Positions 9,576 to 54,919 of a stretch of 64,000 bases of DNA are shown piece after piece; position 1 is the stretch's first letter, and every line of letters begins with the position of its first letter. Both the position numbers and the translations under genes were made by a program. This stretch comes from Enchytraeus crypticus (taxonomy: Eukaryota > Annelida > Clitellata > Enchytraeida > Enchytraeidae), in assembly GCA_905160935.1 (NCBI GenBank), contig CAJHZI010000736.1, positions 377,001 through 441,000 on the forward strand, read 5' to 3'. Below the pieces are notes generated by a model. That model worked only from the letters and a program-made list of their open reading frames with translations, had not been told where the DNA came from and ran no database searches.

Positions 9576-12500
9576 TTACGAGATTTCAATCTCTGAGCAT
9601 ATGAGGATATGGTCGGCATTAGCTTGACCTCTAGTCAAAAGTCCGCTTTGAGTTAGAAACGGACCAAGAACTCTTTTGGTCTTCAACCCTTCCCCAGTGT
9701 GCCAGATGTAATCAGCGTGGAGCAGCTCTGAACTCTCCGCAGGTCCCAAGAATCTTGTCCGAGGCTCGGTAGTCTAAAGATCAATCAATCAATCAAATAT
9801 AACGTCCGGTTCCTCGACAAGGCAATGTCAGGGACGTCTCTTGCAGACTCTACGCAAACAGGCGCCAAAGCACCACACGATGACGACCGAGTACACAGAG
9901 ACCACAAGAGAGAGCGAGATTAAAACAGTGCAAGTCTAAGATCCCAGGCAAGCGGGTCAAAATTGAGACCTATGGCGGAAAGAGATGGGTTTTTAGCTTG
10001 CCAAGTAAAGTATCAATACAATTACAAGATCGAAGGTCTTGTGGCAGAGAGTTAAACTTGAAATACAACTTGAAATAAAGTTAAAGATTAAATAAAACGA
10101 TCTCCTTAGCAAGCTTTAAAAACTAAATGAAAAGAAAGTTTGGATTCGTATTCGAATGTAGTTAGAGGTTGTCGCCAGCCACAGCATGCGATCGCTAAAG
10201 TTCGTAGTCTAATGTCACTAATGGTGCTCAACAATGTCGAATGCAGCCTACAGAAAGCTGTAACTTTCAAGACACGTCTATTATTAATTAATTGTGAGAT
10301 CTCGATTGCGATGAGAATCGTTTCACTTACCGTATCACCTAATCAGTTCAACACATATTCAGGGATATAAGGCGATAATTATAATATAAGAAGACGAATC
10401 TAATTATCTGAATTATTCATAACTCTGATTTCAACATATTTGTTTCAAACTCACGAATTTTCCAATTTAAATGTAGGTCTATACCTTTTGCATAATCTGT
10501 AACAGTTATCGACTTAATTGATTCAATTGATTTGATTGACTTAATTGATTCAATTGATTTGATTGACTTAATTGATTCAATTGATTTGATTGAATTATTC
10601 ATTTGATTAGATTGACGTAATTGATTCAATTGATTTGATTGACTTAATTGATTCAATAGATCAGTTCGGTAATTGAAAACATATTTTGTTGCATGTTAAC
10701 ACTGGTTTGTTAATGTTGACATCTGATACATATATTTACATGCAAATGTAATGGGTCTACATTATAACTTCGTTTTAATGCATGCATATCGTTATAATGG
10801 GTGTCAGAGTTAAATTATAAGCGTTAAATTATTCTTTAGCCTAATTAATATCCGTAGGTTGTATAGTAGGTTGTAAAGTAAATAACATTTCTAAAGAAAG
10901 CTTGTATTAGAAATTATATGAGGAACTAGTACATTTCAATGGTATTCTACGCAGTGTTTACGTTTTCTTGTCCACTGTTTACATTTGGTGTCCCCCGATG
11001 TTCTATTTATAGCTATTACCGAAAAGATCTATTGATTTGATTGACTTAATTGATTCAATTGATTTGATTGACTTAATTGTTTCAATTGATTTGGTTGACT
11101 TAACAGATTCAGAAAACCAATATGCTCCATAGACTTACTAACGTGCAATATAGCAGCGAAGGTCATCTGATATCTTTAAGCAAACTTTTGAAGATTCTTC
11201 TCTAAAATAACTTACATAGGACTTTATAAGTCTACTTGCCAACTTACTAGTTAATAAGAGTTTTATGCTATTAGAACGAAATAAATTACGACCGATGGTA
11301 TTATGCCTTGATATTCTCGTCCAATGATCGATAAAGTGATCCAGAAATCTTAAATCTCACAGTTGCAGAATAAATTATTGCGCTCTAATTAATCTTAAAC
11401 AGAAGTCAAATACACTCCTGCTTCATACCTGCAGTATCAGAATCATCAAACGTAACTCAAGTACATTCTAGGATATATTTACCATAAGATCATGATAGGA
11501 GCTGACGAAATGAAGAGCCTCCTGCCGAAAATTATTCCACATCATCGAGTATAGACTACGCTTCTGAAGTAATAGAATGGTCATGAAACATTGAATAAGG
11601 TCGTTGAAAGATTGATTCAGTACCTCTTTCCTTACTTTAAAAATTGGCAAAAGTTGAAACTAAAGCTAACAAAGCGGGTAAAGCTAAGGTTAACATCATT
11701 TTCCTCACTCGAAAGCGATATCAGTGACGGGCGAAACCAGGATTTGAACCACGTACTTACTGATCAGCTGTCGAGTATCTTACCGACTTCGCCACTGACA
11801 CCAGCCAAGTATCCCTATTGTCGCATTTAGCTATAGTTAATTTATTCTCTATTTCAGTGCATAACCTATGTGCAGGTCCATGACATAGGTTATAACTTCT
11901 TCACATTTCTTTCATCTGTCCTTCTCATCATGTTAACATGCTATTAGGTTATCAAATCATTCAGCATGTCTCGGTTAACCTACTTTCCTTCCATTCTCCA
12001 TTCAATTACCTCTTTAAGTAAACAGTCCGTTATCAGAACATGATTCATCCAGTTGTTAGTTCAATTATGAGATTTTCTAATCCTTGTATTACTTACACAT
12101 ATTCTCAACATCATTCAGCCATTTATTATGTTCATCAGTAGTTTTCTTATATTCTGCATATCTCCGATATAGGCGCTTATAAAGCTTTAATCATTTTCGA
12201 TGAGTCTAGGTTCAAGATAACGCGTATAAGTCTACCGTCCTTCCATGACGGAAAATTAGACTGGTGAACATGCCAGATTTTATTATTGGTAAAATATTTA
12301 CTGTATAATTTTAAAGAATGAATTAATTTTCATTAAAGTCACAGGCGCATAATACCTCGTTCTGGCTGACTCTTATCTCGATATTTTTAACAATGTGCTG
12401 ACTCCGGGCTGATAGTTGACCTTGACTCATCAGCTCATAAACAGCTGATGTGGGGTCAGCGCAGAAGTTTCCACAGACCACCACCCTCTTTTTGTCAAAT

Positions 12501-15305
12501 CCAGAAATTCTCCTCATGGCTCCTAGAATGACCTCTTTCATCTAATCAAAGTAGTAAGAGACATTCAAGTCTTACAATACTTATTGTAAATACAGTTATA
12601 TATTAATGCAAATTATAGGAATGGAGAGATAGTCTCATTAGTTATGTTTCCTTTCTATTTTTATGTTTAGGCCTACTTGTATGATGGTATTTGTAGTTTA
12701 TTTGTAAATTGTAACCTGATTGGTGAAATAAAACTATCTCTACAAGTCGTATATTAAAGTGGTTCTATTTTAAAATAAAATTTTTATCTGCAAAAGTGAA
12801 ACAAAACTTGAATACATTTGCTTTTAAATTTAACTTAAAGGCATTGAAGCCCTGCATCTCACTTCCTCAGAAGCCATGACCAGAACATCCCATATGAGTT
12901 CTAACATCATTTATAGTTTATTTATGTTTCGTGGACGTCGACTTTGCACTGTTTTGTACAGCGAAATTGATTTTAAACTGCATTCGTGATAATTTGTCCA
13001 TTGGTTGCTTTTAAGTACAAAACTAAATATTTATATTTATTATACTAAATCAATATCAAATGTGGCAGTAATTCCATTATCGACCATGATACTTCAAGCT
13101 CCAAGTAATGGCATTTGTTCTAAAATATGATAAAAAACTTGTTATAATCAGAAAAAGTTATTTATGTAAAATACTACCCAAGAGATTTCATAAACAAAAT
13201 CCAATGTGGATTGTGAGTTAAAGCATTCACAGCATATTTTATTACTCATAGTAATAAAAGCTACTATACAAAATACTCAAGCAAGAGTCATACAATTACA
13301 CTAGTCTACTTGCAAAACTCATAAGGATTAATTAGCTAAAAGTTCCCTATGAACAGCTCAAAGATCTTCAACTTATTTAATAAATTATCAATGAAGAACT
13401 GCTCATTAACCTCGAGGCACTGAACTTCCTGACGACTGGAGCTGTCGGTAAGTCTAACGTTAGCGATCAGCAGGTCCTCGTTTGTTCGAGTACAGGTCAG
13501 ACAGGTCAAGATGACGGCAGCCGGGCTCTGAACAGAGAGTTCTAGCGTAGTGGCCTCATTGCGGGTCAAACCTGTGGACTTTCTTATCTCCTGCAGCAAA
13601 AACACAGCTAACGTGAAGTGGAATTACTTGCGTGATCGTTAATTAATCTTGATATAAATGTAACACACTAAATCGAGAGTTAACTATAAAACTGCAATAC
13701 CGATTAGAATATTGTAACTGACGGGCATAAAATTCGAACCCCCTCCCCCCCATACTTAGTACACAACCGGAAGCCTATCCAGTTGATGGCTAGATTAGGC
13801 AATTCTTTCTGTAGTACATTTAGTTATCAGTTTCGATACATGAATCTATTGACTGATTTTGACTGATTGACAGACTAGATACCTACGGTATATAATATAT
13901 TGACAGATTAAGATACTTACCTCTCTAATGAGCCTCACAAGGTCAAAGCTCTCAGAATGGAACTCCGTGAATCGATTTGCTTTATAGAAAGTCACGAGAC
14001 TCGCAGATTGATCAATACCATTATATTGCATGGATTTGCAGTTATAGCCATTGCTGAAACAGCGACAAATATTGCTTAAGATATTTAGATTAATGAGAAA
14101 TGAGTTTTCAATTTAGTGCTACCCTAATATGCATGATTAGCGTCTAAATGATTAGAAAAAATTAGCATCGTGTATCTAACACTGAAAGCAGCCGAGTTTG
14201 CTTTAAGCTACGAGGAAACAGTATAATAAGATAAAGTTAAAATTCAAATATAGATTTGTGGCTGAAAAACTTATGAATGAGCAAGTTTTAAATGAATTTA
14301 AGAAAATTTAATACGAAATAAAAAGACTATTTAGCAACCTATTTTCAATATATAAATTCTGTGAAATCATAAAGAACCGATAGGCTATATCACATTACAT
14401 AGCCATGCAAGAGACGAAGATCCCTTTGTAGTACGTCTTATTCAAGTTCTGCATGCAAATGACGTCAGCATCGTTTTCCAGAATCTCTGCCAGGAATTCT
14501 ATGTGTTGCTCGCGTGATTCAGGTCCTTGACCTACGGCATATGAGATGACCTTGAAGCATTTAGCAGTATTGCCAGGTCTGCCTATCCATTTTCTGTTAG
14601 AAATGCACAACGTTTTATTACTATTTTCATAACACGACAGTAATAATATTTGTTTTTATTATTTTTTATTTACAACATTAATAATTTATTAGAAGGAAAA
14701 CAAGAAAAAATTTTCCTCTTTCGAAAACTTAAAAGGACAAAGAATGAAATAGCATCAATATTGCGAATTTAATTTTTGGTTTGAACAAAGACTCGTTGCA
14801 AGTTGGAAGCAACGAAACTCTACCCAATGTTATATACTTCTTAGACACTGTACAAACCTGTCAATTTATATCGTAAGTATTTTAAAATTTGCTCCTTAGA
14901 TGCCATTCAAACCCTAAATGTTTTGAAATGTTGTTACTTTTGAATTGATAGAAGTAAAATTCATTAAGAGTATTGAATCCAGAAATTGAAAAGAATTCTC
15001 AATCAGCTTCATAATTTACGAGAAATTAACTAACCTATTCCATCCCACAGTTTCAGCGTTCATTAAATCCTCATCGTTCTCTACATCCATGCCATCCCAA
15101 CTCGTTCCCGATTGTTCCGGGATGTTATTGCAGGAGTTTAGATTCCTTCCGATTAGGCCTTCTCCGGATTGGAAGTCTTGGGGATGAAGGGCTCCGTAGT
15201 TAATGGGCATGAGTGAGAGATTAGGGACTGTGCGAGCTTCCGGGCGGGCGAGTCCGAAGACCCATCGACCATGTGATGTAGCCAAATCTTCTGCTAACTC
15301 AGGTG
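9576..15305 (-). CDS. ANGEL/CCR4-like EEP-fold protein with degenerate active site (5' end not found)
   Basis: Seven exons join with consistent phases: 15305-15035, 14593-14399, 14053-13921, 13590-13411, 12541-12356, 11563-11483 and 9773-9576 (stop). Motifs run in the order of the ANGEL/CCR4 branch of the endonuclease/exonuclease/phosphatase fold. Active ANGEL/CNOT6-type deadenylases have SYN, LQE, NTH, GDFN, DYIF and SDH; here these read SYAVGQ, CMQNL, ANVRL, CGNFC, ADYIW and ADH. The Mg-binding Asn, Glu, Asp and Asn are therefore replaced, and so is the His of NTH. Only the Asp of DYI and the last His remain. The frame is open and the splice sites are intact, so I read this as an expressed pseudoenzyme rather than a dead copy. 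The first exon listed (about 90 residues, low complexity) precedes the fold. At least one more 5' exon is needed; the exon at 21356-20827 on the same strand is a candidate, but I could not link them. Confidence 0.85.
9778..10125 (-). mobile_element. LINE-1 family, subfamily with TTGA tail, abutting an exon
   Basis: The minus strand reads FNSLPQDLRSCNCIDTLLGK and LKTHLFPP, stop, then a 3' UTR ending GAGGAACCGGACGTTATATT and repeated TTGA. The tail ends a few bases from the acceptor of the last EEP-fold exon (9773). Confidence 0.8.
10505..10657. repeat. 27-bp minisatellite, left part
   Basis: The unit is GACTTAATTGATTCAATTGATTTGATT with few changes. The array continues at 11031-11103 on the other side of the MITE, so it was split by that insertion. 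Confidence 0.9.
10658..11030 (+). mobile_element. MITE, copy 1 (373 bp), inserted in a minisatellite
   Basis: The ends are inverted repeats (AGATCAGTTCGGTAAT and ATTACCGAAAAGATCT). A close copy lies inverted at 40590-40948. It has no coding capacity. The same 27-bp satellite flanks both sides, and the junctions show a 2-bp duplication (AT, or TA if the end is set one base in). It is therefore a recent non-autonomous DNA transposon. Confidence 0.85.
11031..11103. repeat. 27-bp minisatellite, right part
   Basis: This is the continuation of the array at 10505-10657, with the same unit and orientation, displaced by the MITE. Confidence 0.9.
11671..11806 (-). mobile_element. SINE-1
   Basis: The family has the same order of A box, B box and tail as at 5157. 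This copy has a changed variable part. It lies in the intron before the 27-residue exon of the EEP-fold gene. Confidence 0.8.
11855..12060 (-). mobile_element. LINE-2 family relic
   Basis: The minus strand gives LLKEVIEWRMEGK, stop, VNRDMLN and a decayed terminal part, close to the copy at 61790. It lies in an intron of the EEP-fold gene. Confidence 0.6.
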
Positions 15306-16312: not shown

Positions 16313-16424
16313 GATAGTGAATTATTTCGAGCCAAAATTCGTTTTAGATTTACCTGCATTATTAGCCTCTTTCTTTCTCGGTACCTCCGTGTCCTCACTC
16401 AGCTCATAATCTCTATAAAATACG

Positions 16425-16600
16425 TCATCATCATCATCATCATCATCATCATCGTCGTCGTCGTAGTCGTCGTCGTCATCATCATCATCATCATCATCAC
16501 CATCATCATCATCTTCTTCCCGTAAATCCCAGTTTAACCAGGATCGAGATACGAATAGACTTTCTCCAGTCCTCCCAGTACAATCTCAATAAAATACAAT
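16425..16600 (-). mobile_element. R3 repeat fragment with long CAT/CGT tail
   Basis: About 85 bp of CAT/CGT repeat adjoins CCCGTAAATCCCAGTTTAAC and ACGAATAGACT, the tail end of R3. The repeat grew from the element's tail. Confidence 0.65.
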
Positions 16601-20560: not shown

Positions 20561-20826
20561 AAACACGAAATCTAAACACTACCGAGTTTTCGCAAGGCCG
20601 TTAAGTGGAACTAACAGCCAAACATACAGTAAGTTTCTATTGCAATTTCTTGACTTTCTACATACGTTAGAAAAACCAAAAATAGTGATCGGTATTGGTA
20701 CCTGTAAAGTTCTAGCCTTATGGTTACTTCAAATTGAAAAATTGCTAAGCTCTACTTACGTTAGATACTATGTATCTAGGCGTCTACCTATAGCACTGTT
20801 ACACAGACACGCAACGATGAACATAC

Positions 20827-21356
20827 TCATTCAAAGTCTCTGCTCCATTCAGTTGATCAAATGACGTATTCCCAGCAGTAGCCTTGTGTGATTTGTCAGC
20901 AGCAGCATCTGAGGACACAATGAAATCATCTGTGCTCAGTTTAGCAACTTTAGCCCTCGCCTCCTCTTCCTCTGATATTTTCCGTGAACCTTTTCTGCCT
21001 TGAGTCACCGCCAAGGGCTTCTTTCCATTCCTGTCTGCAGATTTGGCGGTGGAAATCGGACTACTAGCTTCCTTCATAACGTCCTGAAAACTAGGCATCA
21101 TTAGATTAGCGCTTATCTCAGCAACCTTGACCTTCACTTTATTTTTCTCTGGATTCTCTGGCTCGCTCGACTTTACTTCTGCTGGTTTCTTTCTTGATCT
21201 GCCTCTATGTCTGGGTATAGGTGATTTACCGGCGTGTTCTTTGTCAAGGCTTTTGGTATTGCTGTCTAAAGTTTGATTAGTAGCTGATGACTGCGATGAG
21301 GACTGCTGCAGTCTGGCTAGTTCAGCAGCCTTGCGGGTCATTGACCTCGTCTGCAT
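20827..21356 (-). CDS. First coding exon of a basic, nuclear-type protein
   Basis: An ATG at 21356 opens a 176-codon exon ending at a GTATGT donor (20826-20821), after which the frame soon stops. The product starts MQTRSMTRKAAELARLQQ and then alternates Ser/Lys/Glu-rich, low-complexity stretches. It has clustered basic runs (RHRGRSRKK) that look like nuclear localisation signals, and RKGSRKISEEEEA, which could be a kinase site. I do not recognise a domain. The length and base composition differ clearly from the surrounding AT-rich DNA, which supports real coding. It may be the N terminus of the EEP-fold gene downstream on the same strand (15.3-9.6 kb), but the exons that would connect them were not found and the phases do not join directly (2 versus 1). 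It could also be an independent gene. Confidence 0.5.
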
Positions 21357-21667
21357 GGCAATACTGTTCTCTATTTAAATAGTATCTGTCTCTAGCAGCC
21401 GACGGTTCTATTTATACAGTTTGATTGAACAGGGCACAAATTTCATATCATAAAACTCGCTGTTTTTTAAAATACTTTAGGTCTGCAAGATGCACATAAG
21501 AAATACGCGATGGTTATTGTATGACACAAAAACTGTAAGCAATGAACTAGCAATAAGAATTTCCTCCACTGCCAGCTATGAGCAGCAGCTAATAGAAGCT
21601 GCAGTGTTGATGGACACTTCGATGACCTGCCGGGTGTTTGCTAACAGTTTATAGTCAATATAAGGAG

Positions 21668-22720: not shown

Positions 22721-22835
22721 CACGAGTCGTAAGAGGCGACTGAGCAAAAATTGAGGTAGCCAACGAGAAACCACCTCAAAAGCCATATTATTCTCAAACT
22801 ATAGGCTATATTAACGTGTGGATAAGGCATAGCCT
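22721..22835 (+). mobile_element. SINE-2 fragment
   Basis: GTCGTAAGAGGCGACTGAGC and GAGAAACCACCTCAAAAGCC match the middle of the copy at 31076. It is cut by a SINE-1. Confidence 0.7.
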
Positions 22836-22840
22836 TTTAA

Positions 22841-22976
22841 AGCTGGTAAAGCTAAGATTAACGTCAGTTTCCTCACTCGAAAGCGATGTCAGTGACGGAC
22901 GAGCCCAGGATTTGAACACTGCATCTACTGATCCGCGGTCGAGTATCTTACCGACTTCGCCACTGGTTCCAACCGG
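22841..22976 (-). mobile_element. SINE-1, next to a SINE-2 fragment
   Basis: It is full length on the minus strand with clear A and B boxes and abuts a SINE-2 fragment (22721-22835). Open frames on both strands here are SINE sequence. A tail-only copy is at 23255-23305. Confidence 0.85.
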
Positions 22977-24814
22977 TTTTGTGGCGGGATTAACTCGTTG
23001 CTCGATGGAGTGTTCTCTATGGAGCTTGAAAAGCAGCATAAGAGTAGGAATATGTACCTTGGATTTGTCATTTGCCAGAACTTTCGATAAAGAGATTGAG
23101 TTTTACATTCTGATTTCAAAAGAATGGCCACATTAGATACAAATTAAAGCAAGTGGTCGGATATCTCATTAAGCGCTTTAAACTCTTTAGGATTTAAAAC
23201 AGTTGCATAGATATTATGAGAATAACTACTACTACTATTACTAGCTCGATCAAACAAATAAAAAGCTAATGTTAACGTCAATTTCCTCACTCGAAATCTA
23301 TGCATGTCAATCGTCACCCATCAATTTTAGTGTCACACAACGTCTTTCGGAAATTTAAACCAATTTTTGAGGATTCAGACTTATGAAATTTTCCTGAGTC
23401 GAAAAATTGTAAAGTTAGCTGACATATTAGCCAGCAAATGTAAAGTAGAATATTGAGAACAATTGAAAGTTTTATGATTAATTATATTCAAGTGGACCAA
23501 AACGGACCATTACAGTTATCTAGTGTTGGTATAACAATCTCTCGGTGTCAGCATAAACATCATATTTGATTTCATCATATGTGAGGCAGCGGTGGGCGTT
23601 GTCTTCGGGCAATAAAATTATGACAAAGTGCATAACAGCCGCTCTAGTATTTATTTATTTTAATTTAGTTTTGCGATATCACCAATTATAAATTTAGTAT
23701 TGATGTGCTCCTGATATCATTTTGTGTAAGGAAACGAACCCAAACCTTTAGTGTTATTGTTTAATGCCGTTTAACGGTAGGCCTGTATGTATTACACAAC
23801 TGGTAGGTATCTGATAGTCGTTGGACTATACATGTTCATATTACGTTTAACAACTATTTTATTTTAATATTTATTACATTTTTAATTTAAAAAATTTTGC
23901 GAGTTTTAAAATTAGATGCTTTCTTTCTTGTCTTTATCAGTTCGTTAGAATTATTAAATTTAAAATCCTGTCGAAATAATTCTTCTAGAAAGTTTCACAC
24001 GCTGAATCTGCTATGATATCAGAGTTATCAATGTTAATGTATATGTATTTGGACGTATATTTCGATATCTGATTTCAAATTCGTTTTAAATTCTCTTGAA
24101 AAAACCCAATTTGATGATATGTTATCATATCATTAAATATGTTTCATATGTTTCTTCGGCATAGTCTGGGCGACTCTTCTCTGTCCAGGATCAAATGAGC
24201 ATTGAGGGTATATTACCTCGTCCCTTTTGTTTCCAAACTATATCCAGGTTTCCCGGTTCTAGTATTATATTATAGACTAATAGTTCCGAATCTTCATTAT
24301 ATCTCACTATCTAATGTTTGTTGCAGTCCCAATTCATATTATCCGCGACAGTTATGCACCGCTATATTCTGAGCCAAAATTTCGCTTTCTTATCTTAGCA
24401 GTGTATCGGAACAATTCCATTCCTCTACCGGTCGACTGAGCTGTTTTATTACAGTAGCTCATAACGTGTATATTTTGTAAGATAAATATTCAAGATGTAA
24501 ATAAAAATTATAATCTAATAATTATGTTGTAATAGAGATATTATACATTAATAGATAAATAGGTTAATAGGCTAATAGTATTAAGTAATTTAATGCTATT
24601 CTCGTGATGACTTTGTTTTACAAATATTTCAAAATCAATGTAAGGGTGCAGCTGTCCTCTAAGTCCTCTAAAATCGTAATTTATATAATGTATAATATTG
24701 TAGAACCTTTTCCAAATTATAGAAATATAGGAATCAATTAATATAAATAAAAATTGATTAATATAAGTTAAATAAAATCCGAAAGGACCTAGATCTGTTT
24801 GACATCAAGAAGGA

Positions 24815-33435
<8,621 letters not shown>

Positions 33436-34377: not shown

Positions 34378-35184
34378 CAGGGGCGGATCCAGGAATTTTT
34401 TAAGGGGGGCCCGAATTTTTTTTCGAGAGTACACATTTTTTGCTTACGCCACGCCTTCTTCTGGACATGTGACCAGGGGCGGATCCAGGAATTTTTGAAG
34501 GGGGGACCAAAATTTTTTGAGAGTATACATATTTTTTGCTTACGCCACGCCTTCTTCGGGCATGTGACGCCAAGGGGGGGGCTTAAATTTTTTCACTACT
34601 TGGCTCGGCTCATAGAGAGCGTGTATCCCCGTATCTTACCCCCCCCCCCCCTCATACCCGTACTAAAGTCATGAGAAAACCTGAAATGCCTAAAATCCTA
34701 CATTTGTTTTGGAAAAAATCAGGTTAATTTTTTCACCTTCGAAGAAGCTCATCGGATCTGGACGAATTGCAAAAGTGACCTAATTCTGGCGGTGGGGGGG
34801 GGGGGGGGCTTAACTCCCTCTCAGCCAAGGCTGCTTGTACCACTGCTCCGGGACAGAGTTAGCAGTTTTTATTCCTTTTTTCCTCTTATACAGTAGTTAA
34901 AGTCAAAATTGAGAGCTAGTGAAACGATCAATATTTTTCGGGACCCTTTCATTACACAGGGCTCCTAAGATACCAAATATGGGCCCCTAATCCATATTTG
35001 AACAAACCTGAGCTAGTTCCCTTTGAACTGAGTTCCTTCTCGTACCCCCCCCCCCCCCCAACCCTTGCCCTTACAAAACATATTGACACATAAAATTTGC
35101 CCTAGCAACAACGAAAATATAGTTAGAAATTTTTTTCGCCGGGCCTAAGGGGGGGACCGGGCCCCCCTGGATCCGCCACCATTG
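34378..35184 (+). mobile_element. hAT-like non-autonomous element, copy 1
   Basis: It starts CAGGGGCGGATCCAGG and ends with the complement (CCTGGATCCGCC). The flanking octamers ATGGTGGA and ATGGGGAA match at 6 of 8 positions, fitting the 8-bp duplication and CAG ends of hAT transposons. The first 100 bp are duplicated in tandem (34378 and 34476). G and C homopolymer runs are frequent. No transposase is seen. It lies between the RhoGAP and RPL10A genes. Confidence 0.65.
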
Positions 35185-41684: not shown

Positions 41685-43780
41685 TTACAGGTACGTGTCT
41701 ACCGCCTTGGGAAAGCCGTTATCTCTGACGACCTGAGCGTAGAAGGCTGCGGAAGCTTTGGGGGTTCTCTTTCGCTCCGGGTCGTTGAAGTCGACGTGGT
41801 GGAGACCAAAGCGTTCCGAGTAACCTCTCGACCACTCGAAGTTGTCCATTAGACTCCACGCTGTGTAACCCTTGACGTCACAGCCGTCCAGCCGAACAGC
41901 TAGAATCAGAATAATCTAGGCTGTAGCTGGTAAAAGCTAAGTCAGTTTCCTCACTCGTACGCGATGTCAGTGTTAATGAGCCCAGAATTTGAACCCCGAA
42001 CTGATCCGCGGTTGAATATTATATTGACGTTGACACTGGCTCCAGCCAGAGTATAATCTAGGAACACCTTATTGTGGCTATAGATTGTAATCTAACAACA
42101 CCTTATTTAAGCTTTACATTGTAAAATTAATACATCTCATGCGCCCAATTTTCTATGGCTGACGTTATATGGTACAACTGCAATCAGAACTCAGTTACAG
42201 CCACTAGCGAATCTTCAAAGTCTAAACACGTAATTTGAAAGTGATTTATTTAATTATGAGCATCAAAAATCAGATCCGCCACGTCTAAGCGTAATTAAGT
42301 TACTTTAGTCAAGAATAGTGATATAAAATTATATTTTACCGGCTGTGTATAAGTAAAATCTATTATAATAAAAATACAATAAATCTACACTATAGGCCTA
42401 CTATAATAAAAAAAATATAATTAGGCCTATACAGGAGAGTCCACACAAAGTTAACGACACAAGTTGCGTCGTTGACAAATAGTTGGGGTTAGTAGCAAAA
42501 GGTATGAAGTTTAAACTAAAAGAGGGGAAGTAGATAAATTGCGCATCGTAAGTTAGACGAGGGAGGATATGCGTACATGCGAATTTTCTTTGGAGGGGGA
42601 GTGTGGACGCCCCTGATCTGTATAATACAGTACACTAGAATAAGCATAAAATCAAATGACAGATGAAATAATTATGCGCAAACCCTTTAGAACTTCATTA
42701 ATGTAACTCCTGTAGTAGAATATCCTCTCTTTATCGTCCAGTGTTCCAGTGATATCGGATGTTCCATTCTCAGTGATGTATACAGGAGGATTACCGTAGT
42801 GATCCTTAATCCAGTTTAGTAGTCGTCGTAATCCCCATGGTACCACGTACAGCCACTCCGAGCCGGATCTGTAGAATTTTAACATAATTGTCTTATCATC
42901 CGTTGCAGGAATTCCATTTGCTCTATAAGTCTATGCTTTAGGGGCCTAAATAATTAGCTCTTCAATAATTTTCCTTTGTAATGTTTAATTTAATCGATTC
43001 AGTTGTTTTTTGTATTGAATTTTACTTTATGAAAATAGATTTTGATTTTGATTGAGTATGCTTGAATTTATATCAGTACTTCATTTATTTCGAGATTGAG
43101 ATTACTGACTGATAACAACTTACTACAAGACTCACTTCGTCACTTGGTTGGAGGCAGTGGCGATGTCGATTAGATACTTGACCGCGGATCAGTAGGTGCG
43201 GGGTTTAAATCCTGTGCTCGCCCGTCACTGACATCGCTTTCGGGTGAAGAAACTACGTTAACCTTATCTTTTATATATAATTAAAGATAACCTGGGCCAG
43301 TTTGGATCTACTTCGGTTTTACAATCCATCAGATCCGCCTCTGTTGCAGGAGGCTGTGTGCTTGGGAATTTACTAGCAAATCCAGTTGTGTAAGAGTTCA
43401 GTCCAAAGAAGTCCCACGTCCCTGCGTGAACATGTCAAAGACGTTTATATCAGTGCTCGTGACGGGTCTGGAAAATATGCAGTTAGTGGTTATAGTGGGG
43501 GGAGGGGCGCAGGGAACTCAGTTCCACCAATAGTTCTGAGATCTGTTCCCCTGCTAAGGGTCCATATTAGACAGGCCTACTAGGAGATCTGTAGATAGAT
43601 TACCGGTGGGAGGGGGTTTGAAAATTCTGACTGTTCGCCTAGCTCTTAATTCCCATTTTAACCACTGAAAATAGTACGCAATTCGAATGCGGAGAATCTG
43701 CGTTATATAATGATGACGCAGTCAAAAAATATAGAAAAATACTTCATTGCACAGGTATAAAATGCTTATTTAAGATATAC

Positions 43781-43835
<55 letters not shown>

Positions 43836-45688
43836 AGTATAGAATCTTCAAAAGCAAAACCTCGGTTAAGTCTCTTCTCTTCCTCAGTGAACTTGGGCAG
43901 AGGTGACTCAGGTAAACCAAGCTGTTTGGCTTTCAGCGCTAACTGAGCCTTGAGCAAATCAGGATAGTCGCCGTTCCCGAATATAGGATTAGCGAACCAG
44001 CCCAGCTTGAACTGCATCACTCTGTAAAATACAATTATGGTTACTGATATGCCAGTTTATATGCCTATACAAAAAATTCAGTCAAGCAGTGAAAGCTTAA
44101 ATTTACATGTAGATTAACATGAGAGCAATAAAGGATTCAATAACTCTCAGATGATATTCAGACTCACCAAAGAAGAATGGTTGGTCTCTCGCAATATAGG
44201 CTACACTGACATAATAATGTCATGAGATTATAATAATTAAATACATCTAAATCTCGGGTTATTGTGAAACAATAGCACTGTAGAATGGAATCTCACAATA
44301 TACCGTACATAGACCTGGAAGTTTAGAACAGAGACATTAATATCTCTCAGAAGACATCGAGACCTACAAAATGAGAAAGGTATACCTCTGAGATGCCTCC
44401 ACCTCGATACGCCACAGTGTTTATAACTACAGAAGTAGAATGGTATACTTCTTACATGACTTTAAACCTATCTTTTGACTCATTTTCTGGATTTTAGAAT
44501 TTTCACCGTTTTAGAATTTTTGGACCTTCTTTTGCTCGGCAGCTTGGATTTGTCTCAATAGTGTTCGATGTTGTCAATGATTACTATTTAACTCTAATTG
44601 TTGATGTTATTGTTACTATTTTTTTATTGTTATTAGAGTAGTAGAATGGTTTACCTCTCAGAAGCCTCCACGTCGTCAGGGTTGTTTCGATCCTTCGGTT
44701 CACTCCAATCACAATTATTTGAAATTCCAACTTTACCTACGCAGTAATATCAATATTTAAGTATTTTATGAAATCGAAATTTAAGATATAAAATCATTAC
44801 CTATACTTCTTTCTTTTACTAAAATGCCTAAATTGTTTTCATAGCACATAGCTTATCTAAATAATTATGTCTGTTCTATATTTCCTATTCCGGCATATAA
44901 ATGCTGTATCAAATTCTCCATTCCTTAATCCGGCCATTCTTACACACTCTTTCCATAAATTATCTTTTCTATTACCACTTTTAGAAATCTATTCAACATA
45001 TACAGTAGCTTTAATAGCATTTAGAGGGCTATATAATAGTATGAAACGTAGGTAAATATTTTATTTTAATTAATCATCTACGGAGCAGGTCAAACTTCAT
45101 TTCATCAAATATTACTAAAAGTTACTGATATCGTCTCTCCACTCGGTTGTAATTGATCTTCACGAAAAAGTGGCCGATATCTACATCTCCATATAGTTGG
45201 AAGAGGCAGTGAGGAAGCTTATTGGAAAGGTGGACATTCAGAGAAAGAAAGAAAATCTTCTGTGGTTAGTCAGTAACGATAAGCATAATGTAATTTTGAA
45301 TAAACCTGCCTAAAATATTGAGAGAATCAATCAACTTTAGCGTATGCACGTAGATTACAAAAACTAAACTTTTACGTCAAGACTAATTCTAGCAAACTGT
45401 TCACTAGCGCAAAAGATGATGCATTTGAGGCACAAAACAATTTTAGAAATATTTTAACGTCATTTTAATTACTACATGGATCACGTTAACAGTCGCTTGA
45501 ATGATTGATTTGAAATCGCACCAGTAATGCGGTGGCAAGTAAATAAGTAAATATTATTATTTACCTGAAAACTAAGGGAACGATCGAGCTTAGAGGATAT
45601 GCAGTGAGAAAGCGTAACACAGTGCTTCCAATATATTTATAGCTTGAAGCCTAATAAAGCTCATCTTCCATTTCACCCTTCAAAACTA

Positions 45689-52170: not shown

Positions 52171-53615
52171 TAAAAAAGTAACTTAATAAAATTACATTTT
52201 TACTAAAAATGTAAAACATTCAAAATAAACTTATTTCATACAGCTAAAAGTTTATCTATATCTAATTGTTAAAGACATAAGCTTATATAAAATACCGAAA
52301 AAGTACATCAATCTACAACCTCAGTGGTTGCAAGGGTTATAATGCGTTGGTGCGCTATAAGTTAAGCTACATATTAAATATTGAGCTTGCAAATGTCAAA
52401 CATCTGCAAGCTCAATTCTTGCATTAAAAATTGCAATCATTGCAGTTTTTGAACTATTTGCAATCATTCAAATTCTAATATCGTACAGAGAGCGAAACAC
52501 ATAGAGACATATAATAGACTTTCTGTCAACCTACCTGGTATGGTATCTAAATTCAGTCCTTTCCTCTAATGGTTATAGTTACTCAACTGCATAATCGTCG
52601 AGAGTATGTTATCTGCTGTAGACAACTAATATCATAACGCTATCAGTCAGCTACGTGCTCTGAGGGCGCTAGGGCAGCACGTGCTGGTCGCCTGTACGTA
52701 TGTTAGAATGCTTAAGTGCTTCTGCAATATACAGTACATAAAACTCCTAAAACTACAAGACAGAAAGCTGAAGCCTACTCTCTGAAAACATATACTAATT
52801 GCTATTGATTGCTTGCATATGAAGCTGATTCGTTTTAAAAGATGTGTTCTGATCAACAGGGGTGGATCCAGGAATTTTGTAAGGGGGGGGGCCCGACATT
52901 TTTTTGAGAGTACATTTTTTGCTTCTTCGGGACATGTGACGCAGCCAGACAAATTTCTGTGGGGGTGCTCAAAATTTGTTCACTACTGCGTTCGGCTCAT
53001 AGAGTGAGTGAATCCCCGTACCTTACCCCCCCCCCCTCATACTCGTCAGGGGAAAACCTAAAATCCTACATTTGTTTGGAAAAGTAGGTTAATTTTTCAC
53101 CTCTGAAGAAACATTGCAGATCTCGACGAATTGCAAAATTGACTTAATTTTGGCGGTGGGGGTAGGGTGCGTAAGCCCCTTCCAACCAAGGCTGTTTGCA
53201 CCACTGATACGGGATAGAGTTCATATTTTTTACTTACACCGTTTTTTCCTCTAATGCAGTGGTTATGCATTGGTTCAAGTGAAAATTGAAAGCTAGTGAA
53301 ACGGTCAACACTGGTTTGGACCCCCTTCCATTATACAGTGCTCCTAGTATATCCTAGAAAAAAATCGTGCTATTGGAACTGAGTTCCCTATCTTCCTCTA
53401 ATGCAGTGGTTATGCATTGGTTCAAGTGAAAATTGAAAGCTAGTGAAACGGTCAACACTGGTTTGGACCCCCTTCCATTATACAGTGCTCCTAGTATATC
53501 CTAGAAAAAAATCGAGCTATTGGAACTGAGTTCCCTATCGTACTCCCCTCGACCCCCCTCCTAACCACCTCCATTATTAACATATTTTCACATCGAAATT
53601 GCCAAAGAAACAATG

Positions 53616-53983: not shown

Positions 53984-54919
53984 CACTAGCTTTCAATTTT
54001 CACTTGAACCAATGCATAACCACTGCATTAGAGGAAAAAACGGTGTAAGTAAAAAATATGAACTCTATCCCGTATCAGTGGTGCAAACAGCCTTGGTTGG
54101 AAGGGGCTTACGCACCCTACCCCCACCGCCAAAATTAAGTCAATTTTGCAATTCGTCGAGATCTGCAATGTTTCTTCAGAGGTGAAAAATTAACCTACTT
54201 TTCCAAACAAATGTAGGATTTTAGATTTTCCCCTGACGAGTATGAGGGGGGGGGGGGGGTAAGGTATGGGGATTCACTCACTCTATGAGCCGAACGTAGT
54301 AGTGAACAAATTTTGAGCACCCCCACAGAAATTTGTCTGGTTGCGTCACATGTCCGAAGAAAGCAAAAAAATGTACTCTCAAAAAACATTTCGGGCCACT
54401 CCCTTACAAAATTCCTGAATCCGCCCCTGTCCATTACTAACATATTTTCACATCGAAATTGCCATAGTAACAATAAAAATATAGTTTACAAAATTTTATC
54501 GGCGGTCCTAAGGGGGGGGGGGGGGGCGGGCCCCCTGGGCCCACCCTGGATCCGCCACTGTTTATCAAATATTTTAAATAAACTTATTTAACACCAAGAA
54601 TTGCAATGCAAGTTTCAGTGATATTAGGAATCTATGACTTATTAGTTATAGGTGATTTTGAGAGCAGTTTAGTCTTGCAATTAGCGAAATTCTAAGAATA
54701 TCGTATAGAGACAATTAAGCGTAGGTCCACAATAAATTAGTTACCGCAAGCTTGACTGCAGATGATTAGAATCCCAAATACACACATAGCCTACATGGGC
54801 ATAGCCTACACAAACATTTTAAGCACGCAAACCAATCGGTCCGCATACCGACACAAAACAGGTACTAAAAATTATCCAATACTTAACTAACCAATTCTTG
54901 AAAACATTCTCTGCAAGTA

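Follow-up and report, generated by a model that had tools for sequence, protein, structure and literature searches.

Introduction

The closest described relatives of the gene reported here are nocturnin (NOCT; PDB 6mal, 6bt1), ANGEL1 and ANGEL2 (PDB 6rvz), and CNOT6/CNOT6L and PDE12 (PDB 3ngq, 4z0v), all belonging to the CCR4-type EEP superfamily, whose catalytic set consists of an Asn, a Glu, a His, Asp-x-Asn, an Asp and a final Asp-His. Angel1 in which the Glu of this set alone was changed to Ala no longer rescued non-stop decay (PMC12265940), and fly Angel with its catalytic Glu mutated gave no rescue (PMC9525292), according to the accessible parts of these two reports. The active sites of Drosophila Angel and Nocturnin are reported to be conserved (PMC4033318, excerpt), and human NOCT has been considered a possible pseudoenzyme, though its catalytic residues are reported to be conserved (PMC6214945, excerpt). 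Outside the family, fungal pseudonucleases related to Dis3/RNase II offer a parallel in that a nuclease fold has outlived its active site, the proteins being described as RNA-binding in the available portion of the source (PMC8097288); they differ in belonging to the RNase II nuclease family and to another lineage. Among the matches listed from the open-licence literature, none described a conserved pseudoenzyme of the CCR4-type EEP family.

Here we describe a gene of the annelid Enchytraeus crypticus located in a 64,000-nucleotide stretch of genomic DNA (contig CAJHZI010000736.1, positions 377,001 to 441,000; hereafter the window). Its product resembles nocturnin in the predicted EEP fold and in its DYIW and CGxFxAxPT strands, but nocturnin has every catalytic residue of the set, together with a NOCT-specific loop that is mostly missing from the gene. 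With an estimated probability of about 0.75, we read the locus as a spliced gene for a CCR4-type EEP-fold pseudoenzyme which lost its catalytic residues before a retrocopy was formed, has been under purifying selection since, and would act by non-catalytic binding.

Results

A seven-exon gene on the minus strand

The seven exons, running from 15305 to 9576 (Table 1), join in phase into 1202 bases that encode 399 residues and a stop codon with no internal stop, and they are bordered by an AG acceptor in all seven cases and by a GT donor at each of the six exons that have an intron downstream. A sequence-only reading of this DNA had claimed seven in-phase exons with GT-AG sites and about 1.2 kb of coding sequence without stop or frameshift, and this was borne out. 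For the six exons measured, G+C content ranged from 0.41 to 0.53, as against 0.27 to 0.36 in the introns between them. The two other sense frames of these six exons contained 2–7 stops each and the coding frame none. A codon-usage score trained on 832 codons lacked the power to discriminate: it was higher in another sense frame for exons B and E, was exceeded by antisense frames for exon C, and was nearly level for exon D.

The micro-exon came to light on comparing the gene with its second copy (see below). By eye, its product is the counterpart of the LxSAY/SVY strand of the family; the RNA fold around it gave no signal (z 1.16). A tblastn search of the window and the surrounding 240 kb (120 kb on each side) revealed no further copy of the gene.

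Table 1. Exons of the gene and candidate upstream features, in window positions. The last column describes the join to the preceding exon in the second copy on C404.
Feature	Position	Strand	Length	Content	Join in C404 copy
Candidate upstream exon	16354..16585	(-)		phase-compatible; partly poly-Asp from a (GAT)n tract, partly dispersed repeat	
Upstream open frame	20802..21374	(-)		holds MQTRSMTRKAAELARLQQ; G+C 0.46	
Exon A	15035..15305	(-)	271 nt	enters in phase 1, open; AG acceptor, GT donor; residues upstream of the EEP domain	
Exon B	14399..14593	(-)	195 nt	first EEP strand, reading SYA at the Asn motif and ADVICMQN at the Glu motif (LQE)	intron-free
Exon C	13921..14053	(-)	133 nt	GY...DQSASLVTFYKANRF; EEP core	no intron, small indel
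Exon D	13411..13590	(-)	180 nt	strand reading NVRL where the family has NTHL	clean
Exon E	12356..12541	(-)	186 nt	VVVCGNFCADP in place of GDFN	clean
Micro-exon	11483..11521	(-)	39 nt	EALHFVSSYHDLM; AG/GT, phase 0 on both sides	87-base insertion
Last exon	9576..9773	(-)	198 nt	retains the Asp of DYIWHT and the Asp-His of ADH; includes the stop codon	ungapped

An EEP-like domain without most of the catalytic residues

Profile comparison (hhalign) of the product with NOCT, ANGEL2 and parts of PDE12 and CNOT6L gave 96.7% and an E-value of 3.5e-10. When the 297-residue form lacking the micro-exon was run against PDB chains with phmmer, Nocturnin (4.5e-5) and ANGEL2 (1.5e-4) were found, E-values that lie near noise because designed repeat proteins scored 6e-4 and 0.02 in the same list. 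The Pfam family PF03372 (Exo_endo_phos) was matched at 16.1 bits, under its cut-off of 24.5 (14.1 bits with the 399-residue form), and an NCBIfam search returned nothing. Judged by homology over the EEP fold, and with Pfam below cut-off, the product is predicted to belong to the CCR4-type EEP superfamily.

Alignment with NOCT and ANGEL2 agreed with the motif calls made from the letters alone, namely SYA, MQN, NVR and GNFC, with DYI and DH kept. The Glu of LQE is Asn (MQN), the His of NTH is Arg (NVR), and GDFN reads GNFC, with Asn for the Asp and Cys for the Asn. In the first motif, SYA, the Asn is lost as well, one alignment showing it as deleted rather than replaced. Between the first and second motifs, 16–17 residues are absent by a count on the sequences. 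The gene thus lacks the complete catalytic set, of which only the Asp of DYI and the final Asp-His are kept. Because the Asn, Glu, His and Asp/Asn are lost and these 16–17 residues are absent, the metal site appears to be dismantled, and from the known role of the lost residues the protein is predicted to be catalytically inactive.

An active enzyme with a rebuilt site, its metal or chemistry supplied by other residues or its substrate being a different phosphate, would accommodate the persistence of the DYI Asp and the Asp-His pair and the presence of asparagine at two sites where the family has Glu and Asp; migrated catalytic residues are indeed considered possible for some pseudoenzymes (PMC10211241, in the part available). 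We nevertheless hold this to be highly improbable, as the Glu (MQN) and the Asp (GNFC) are both gone and the Glu mutants of Angel1 (PMC12265940) and fly Angel (PMC9525292), as excerpted, already fail to rescue.

A decayed second copy lacking most introns

A whole-genome search with the 297-residue form (E ≤ 10) returned nine matched pieces, five of them from this gene and four from one place on another contig (G000:C404:84264-85461, L038-L041). As the search scored the best candidates (8 of 8) and missed distant relatives, this is the only other copy in the sense of close copies, and the locus is single-copy as far as found.

The C404 copy starts inside exon A. Five of its six exon junctions are free of introns, one of these five carrying a small indel; the remaining junction, which joins exon E to the micro-exon, holds an 87-base insertion whose end matches the intron of the gene. 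Over the 319 codons compared there are 12 stops, and 12 of the 20 gaps in the alignment have lengths not divisible by three; one of these lies in the ragged 5' end, and some neighbouring gaps perhaps reflect a single event. The C404 sequence is a dead copy, best explained as a retrocopy. The intron-free junctions imply that germ-line cells at one time produced a spliced transcript of the exon chain; a form of the proof of splicing, for which the sequence-only reading had looked to transcripts, is thus provided by the retrocopy.

At the five lost catalytic sites the copy reads Ala, Asp, Arg, Asn and Tyr and the gene Ala, Asn, Arg, Asn and Cys. Since three sites are identical and neither sequence has the family residue at any of the five, the catalytic loss most likely predates the retrocopy; separate changes in gene and copy are possible at the two sites that differ.

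Probable selection on the reading frame

For the gene and its copy, a single sequence pair without outgroup, dN/dS was 0.315 (bootstrap 0.22–0.45), computed without the first 26 codons, alignment columns lying 3 bases or less from a gap, and codons that had become stops. Simulations in which both sequences evolved neutrally gave a mean of 0.79, and in neither of two settings, with up to 600 runs each, did any run give a value as low as the one observed. Differences by codon position, with the same leading codons and gap-flanking columns left out, numbered 67/329, 53/331 and 100/329 (chi-square p 2e-5), and third positions differed more than first and second positions in all seven exons, single exons being short. 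With dN/dS far below the neutral expectation, at least one side must have been constrained, and the 12 stops are all in the copy. A form of the dN/dS check between species that had been proposed for the earlier reading is given by this comparison with the retrocopy, with a result below neutral expectation.

How strongly the gene itself would have been constrained was estimated with the copy taken as neutral and the two branches as equal. With gene dN/dS set to 0.5, 0.7 or 1, the observed value was reached in 0 of up to 120 runs in each of six settings; it was reached in 0–1.7% at 0.3, 0–4.2% at 0.2, 1.7–6.7% at 0.1 and 8–15% at 0. The best fit was thus at a gene dN/dS of 0–0.1, with the observed value still on the low side, and values from 0.5 upwards fail to fit a copy that evolved neutrally all along. 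Simulated copies acquired on average about 4.5–7.1 stops as against the 12 of the C404 copy. Because of this excess of stops and the low observed value, the model of equal branches and neutrality from birth is inexact; the copy may have remained functional for some time before it died, or the branches may be unequal, in which case the bound on the gene would be looser. In a rougher test, neutral drift from the coding sequence of the gene left it free of stops in fewer than 1% of runs at 0.1 substitutions per site, and produced about 15 stops at 0.5 substitutions per site.

These data bear on whether the gene is simply decaying, that is, a pseudogene yet to meet its first stop or frameshift. 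Loss of the catalytic residues and of 16–17 residues of the domain would be in keeping with decay, as would the low identity to the family, but dN/dS and the codon-position bias against the retrocopy speak against it, and so do the probable age of the losses, which would be older than the retrocopy, and the fact that the retrocopy gained 12 stops and the gene none. We regard ongoing decay as very unlikely, and it is possible that constraint was relaxed recently on the gene's own branch, the comparison being of one pair without outgroup. Of the conserved pseudoenzyme proposed from the letters, an intact gene, seemingly kept by selection and with most catalytic residues gone, has thus stood, whereas its identity as an ANGEL has not (see below).

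Placement among the EEP proteins of the same genome

The presence of a canonical ANGEL in this species had been named as a point to verify, and one is found on C795 (human ANGEL2 match, 1.9e-17). It comprises an open frame of 469 residues, of which 456 were read, running in a single frame from DGCAI to SDH, and keeps TYN, STH, GDMN, DYI and SDH in the parts read, the LQE exon lying outside them; it is one open frame where the gene described here has introns. CNOT6 and PDE12, which share the superfamily with the gene, likewise have strong counterparts of their own in this genome, at C757 and C696 (human CNOT6L query, 3e-18) and at C717 (one locus; human PDE12 query, 4e-27). Human NOCT as query found nothing better than E 0.001 among the 10 best candidates scored. 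Unassigned EEP-like places lie at C669, C201 and C424. Two short pieces read at C669 keep LQE, DYI and SDH; this locus was considered as a close relative of the gene and rejected, being no closer than the other families.

Identity of the gene to each of the five sequences compared was 18–23%, and its local z was 16.9 with NOCT, 15.5 with ANGEL2, 11.2 with PDE12, 7.6 with CNOT6L and 5.3 with the ANGEL of the same genome. In a six-sequence tree the latter grouped with human ANGEL2 (100) with the gene outside, and the gene joined NOCT (94) on a very long branch of 2.1. An orthologue of ANGEL is thereby rejected, by the separate canonical gene at C795 and by the tree, and the ANGEL label first attached to the gene finds no support, as ANGEL, nocturnin, PDE12 and CNOT6 all lie at about the same distance from the gene. 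Other comparisons were divided: the N-terminal half of the domain scored better with ANGEL2 and the C-terminal half with NOCT, the segment of exons B and C had its strongest match in ANGEL1/ANGEL2, and phmmer with the 399-residue form placed ANGEL2 first (2.6e-4), ahead of NOCT (0.022). Out of eight NOCT-specific residues listed in the accessible part of PMC6214945, one was matched (N230) when compared by eye with numbering tied to E195; D160, R290, K365 and R367 differ in the gene, and P220, P223 and L225 fall in a gap.

A specific form of the pseudoenzyme reading would make the gene the organism's own nocturnin, disarmed, with no canonical nocturnin left. Both the junction with NOCT in the tree and the best local z point that way, as does the failure of the human NOCT query to do better than E 0.001 among the best 10 candidates when ANGEL2, CNOT6L and PDE12 all find counterparts. 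Set against this are the very long branch in a tree of only six taxa, the preference of the N-terminal half and of the 399-residue phmmer search for ANGEL2, the single match among the eight NOCT-specific residues (PMC6214945, excerpt), and the scope of the search, which covers the 10 best candidates in a genome with unassigned EEP loci at C669, C201 and C424. On balance a disarmed nocturnin seems unlikely.

Sequences around the gene

The N-terminus may extend beyond exon A. The upstream candidate at 16585–16354 is not counted as an established exon because of its poly-Asp/(GAT)n and dispersed repeat content; its SLFVSRxWLNWDLRE stretch recurs, partial or diverged, in 7 of the 32 loci searched. 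The open frame further upstream has no family match above cut-off and could conceivably, and speculatively, be the first exon of the gene or else a separate gene.

Several other features were recorded. Similar stretches, recognisable by VAKSVRYSTADQ or, translated, by GKIFDRGSV, occur in an intron and in flanking DNA (11757–11900 and 22806–23143 of the window; L011 4719–5092) and, by eye, probably represent a dispersed short repeat. On the plus strand, an open frame of 637 residues (31522–33435) lies downstream of a RhoGAP exon (29449–29865) and contains at 32000–32285 a 24-base minisatellite of about 12 copies translated in frame as (RLNDDSEH)n. A tandem pair of 96-base units (CAGGGGCGGATCCAGGAATTTTTGAAGGGG...) at 34378–34568 probably belongs to a mobile element, as stretches similar by eye are present at 52647–52979 and 54195–54485. 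Two matches to glycosyl hydrolase family 1 (Pfam PF00232), one above and one below cut-off, were located at 42655–44056 on the minus strand. In the flank of the window (L011 5426–9278, minus strand), open frames resemble what we take, by eye, to be exons of a glutaminase gene.

Discussion

The reading that we favour, a conserved pseudoenzyme with an EEP fold, can be put as a sequence of steps. The metal/phosphate site would have been taken apart through loss of the Asn, Glu, His and Asp/Asn, with the DYI Asp and the Asp-His pair kept; this would have happened before the retrocopy was formed, and the reading frame would have remained under purifying selection afterwards. Parts of the fold core (ADVICMQ, GY, CGxF, DYI and Asp-His) are retained, with the chemistry presumably gone. 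The protein most likely works by binding: its fold would engage the mRNA-decay machinery through a protein partner or an RNA end, with no cleavage. Because the phosphate- and metal-holding residues are lost, we infer that a protein partner is somewhat likelier than RNA.

Pseudoenzymes often turn into regulators of active relatives. On a wider view, the gene might stand for a conserved animal subfamily of EEP pseudonucleases, in which, within this lineage, a CCR4-type phosphodiesterase, perhaps nocturnin, was disarmed long ago and preserved by selection as a non-catalytic regulator, canonical nocturnin having gone; this broader idea is tentative and we consider it rather doubtful.

A dead retrocopy within an organism's own genome can support the splicing of its parent gene and time a catalytic loss relative to the copying event, and it serves as a test of selection that needs no second species. 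If the pseudoenzyme reading is true, the dead member, preserved by selection beside canonical ANGEL, CNOT6 and PDE12 in the same genome, would offer a naturally occurring case in which binding is uncoupled from catalysis in mRNA decay.
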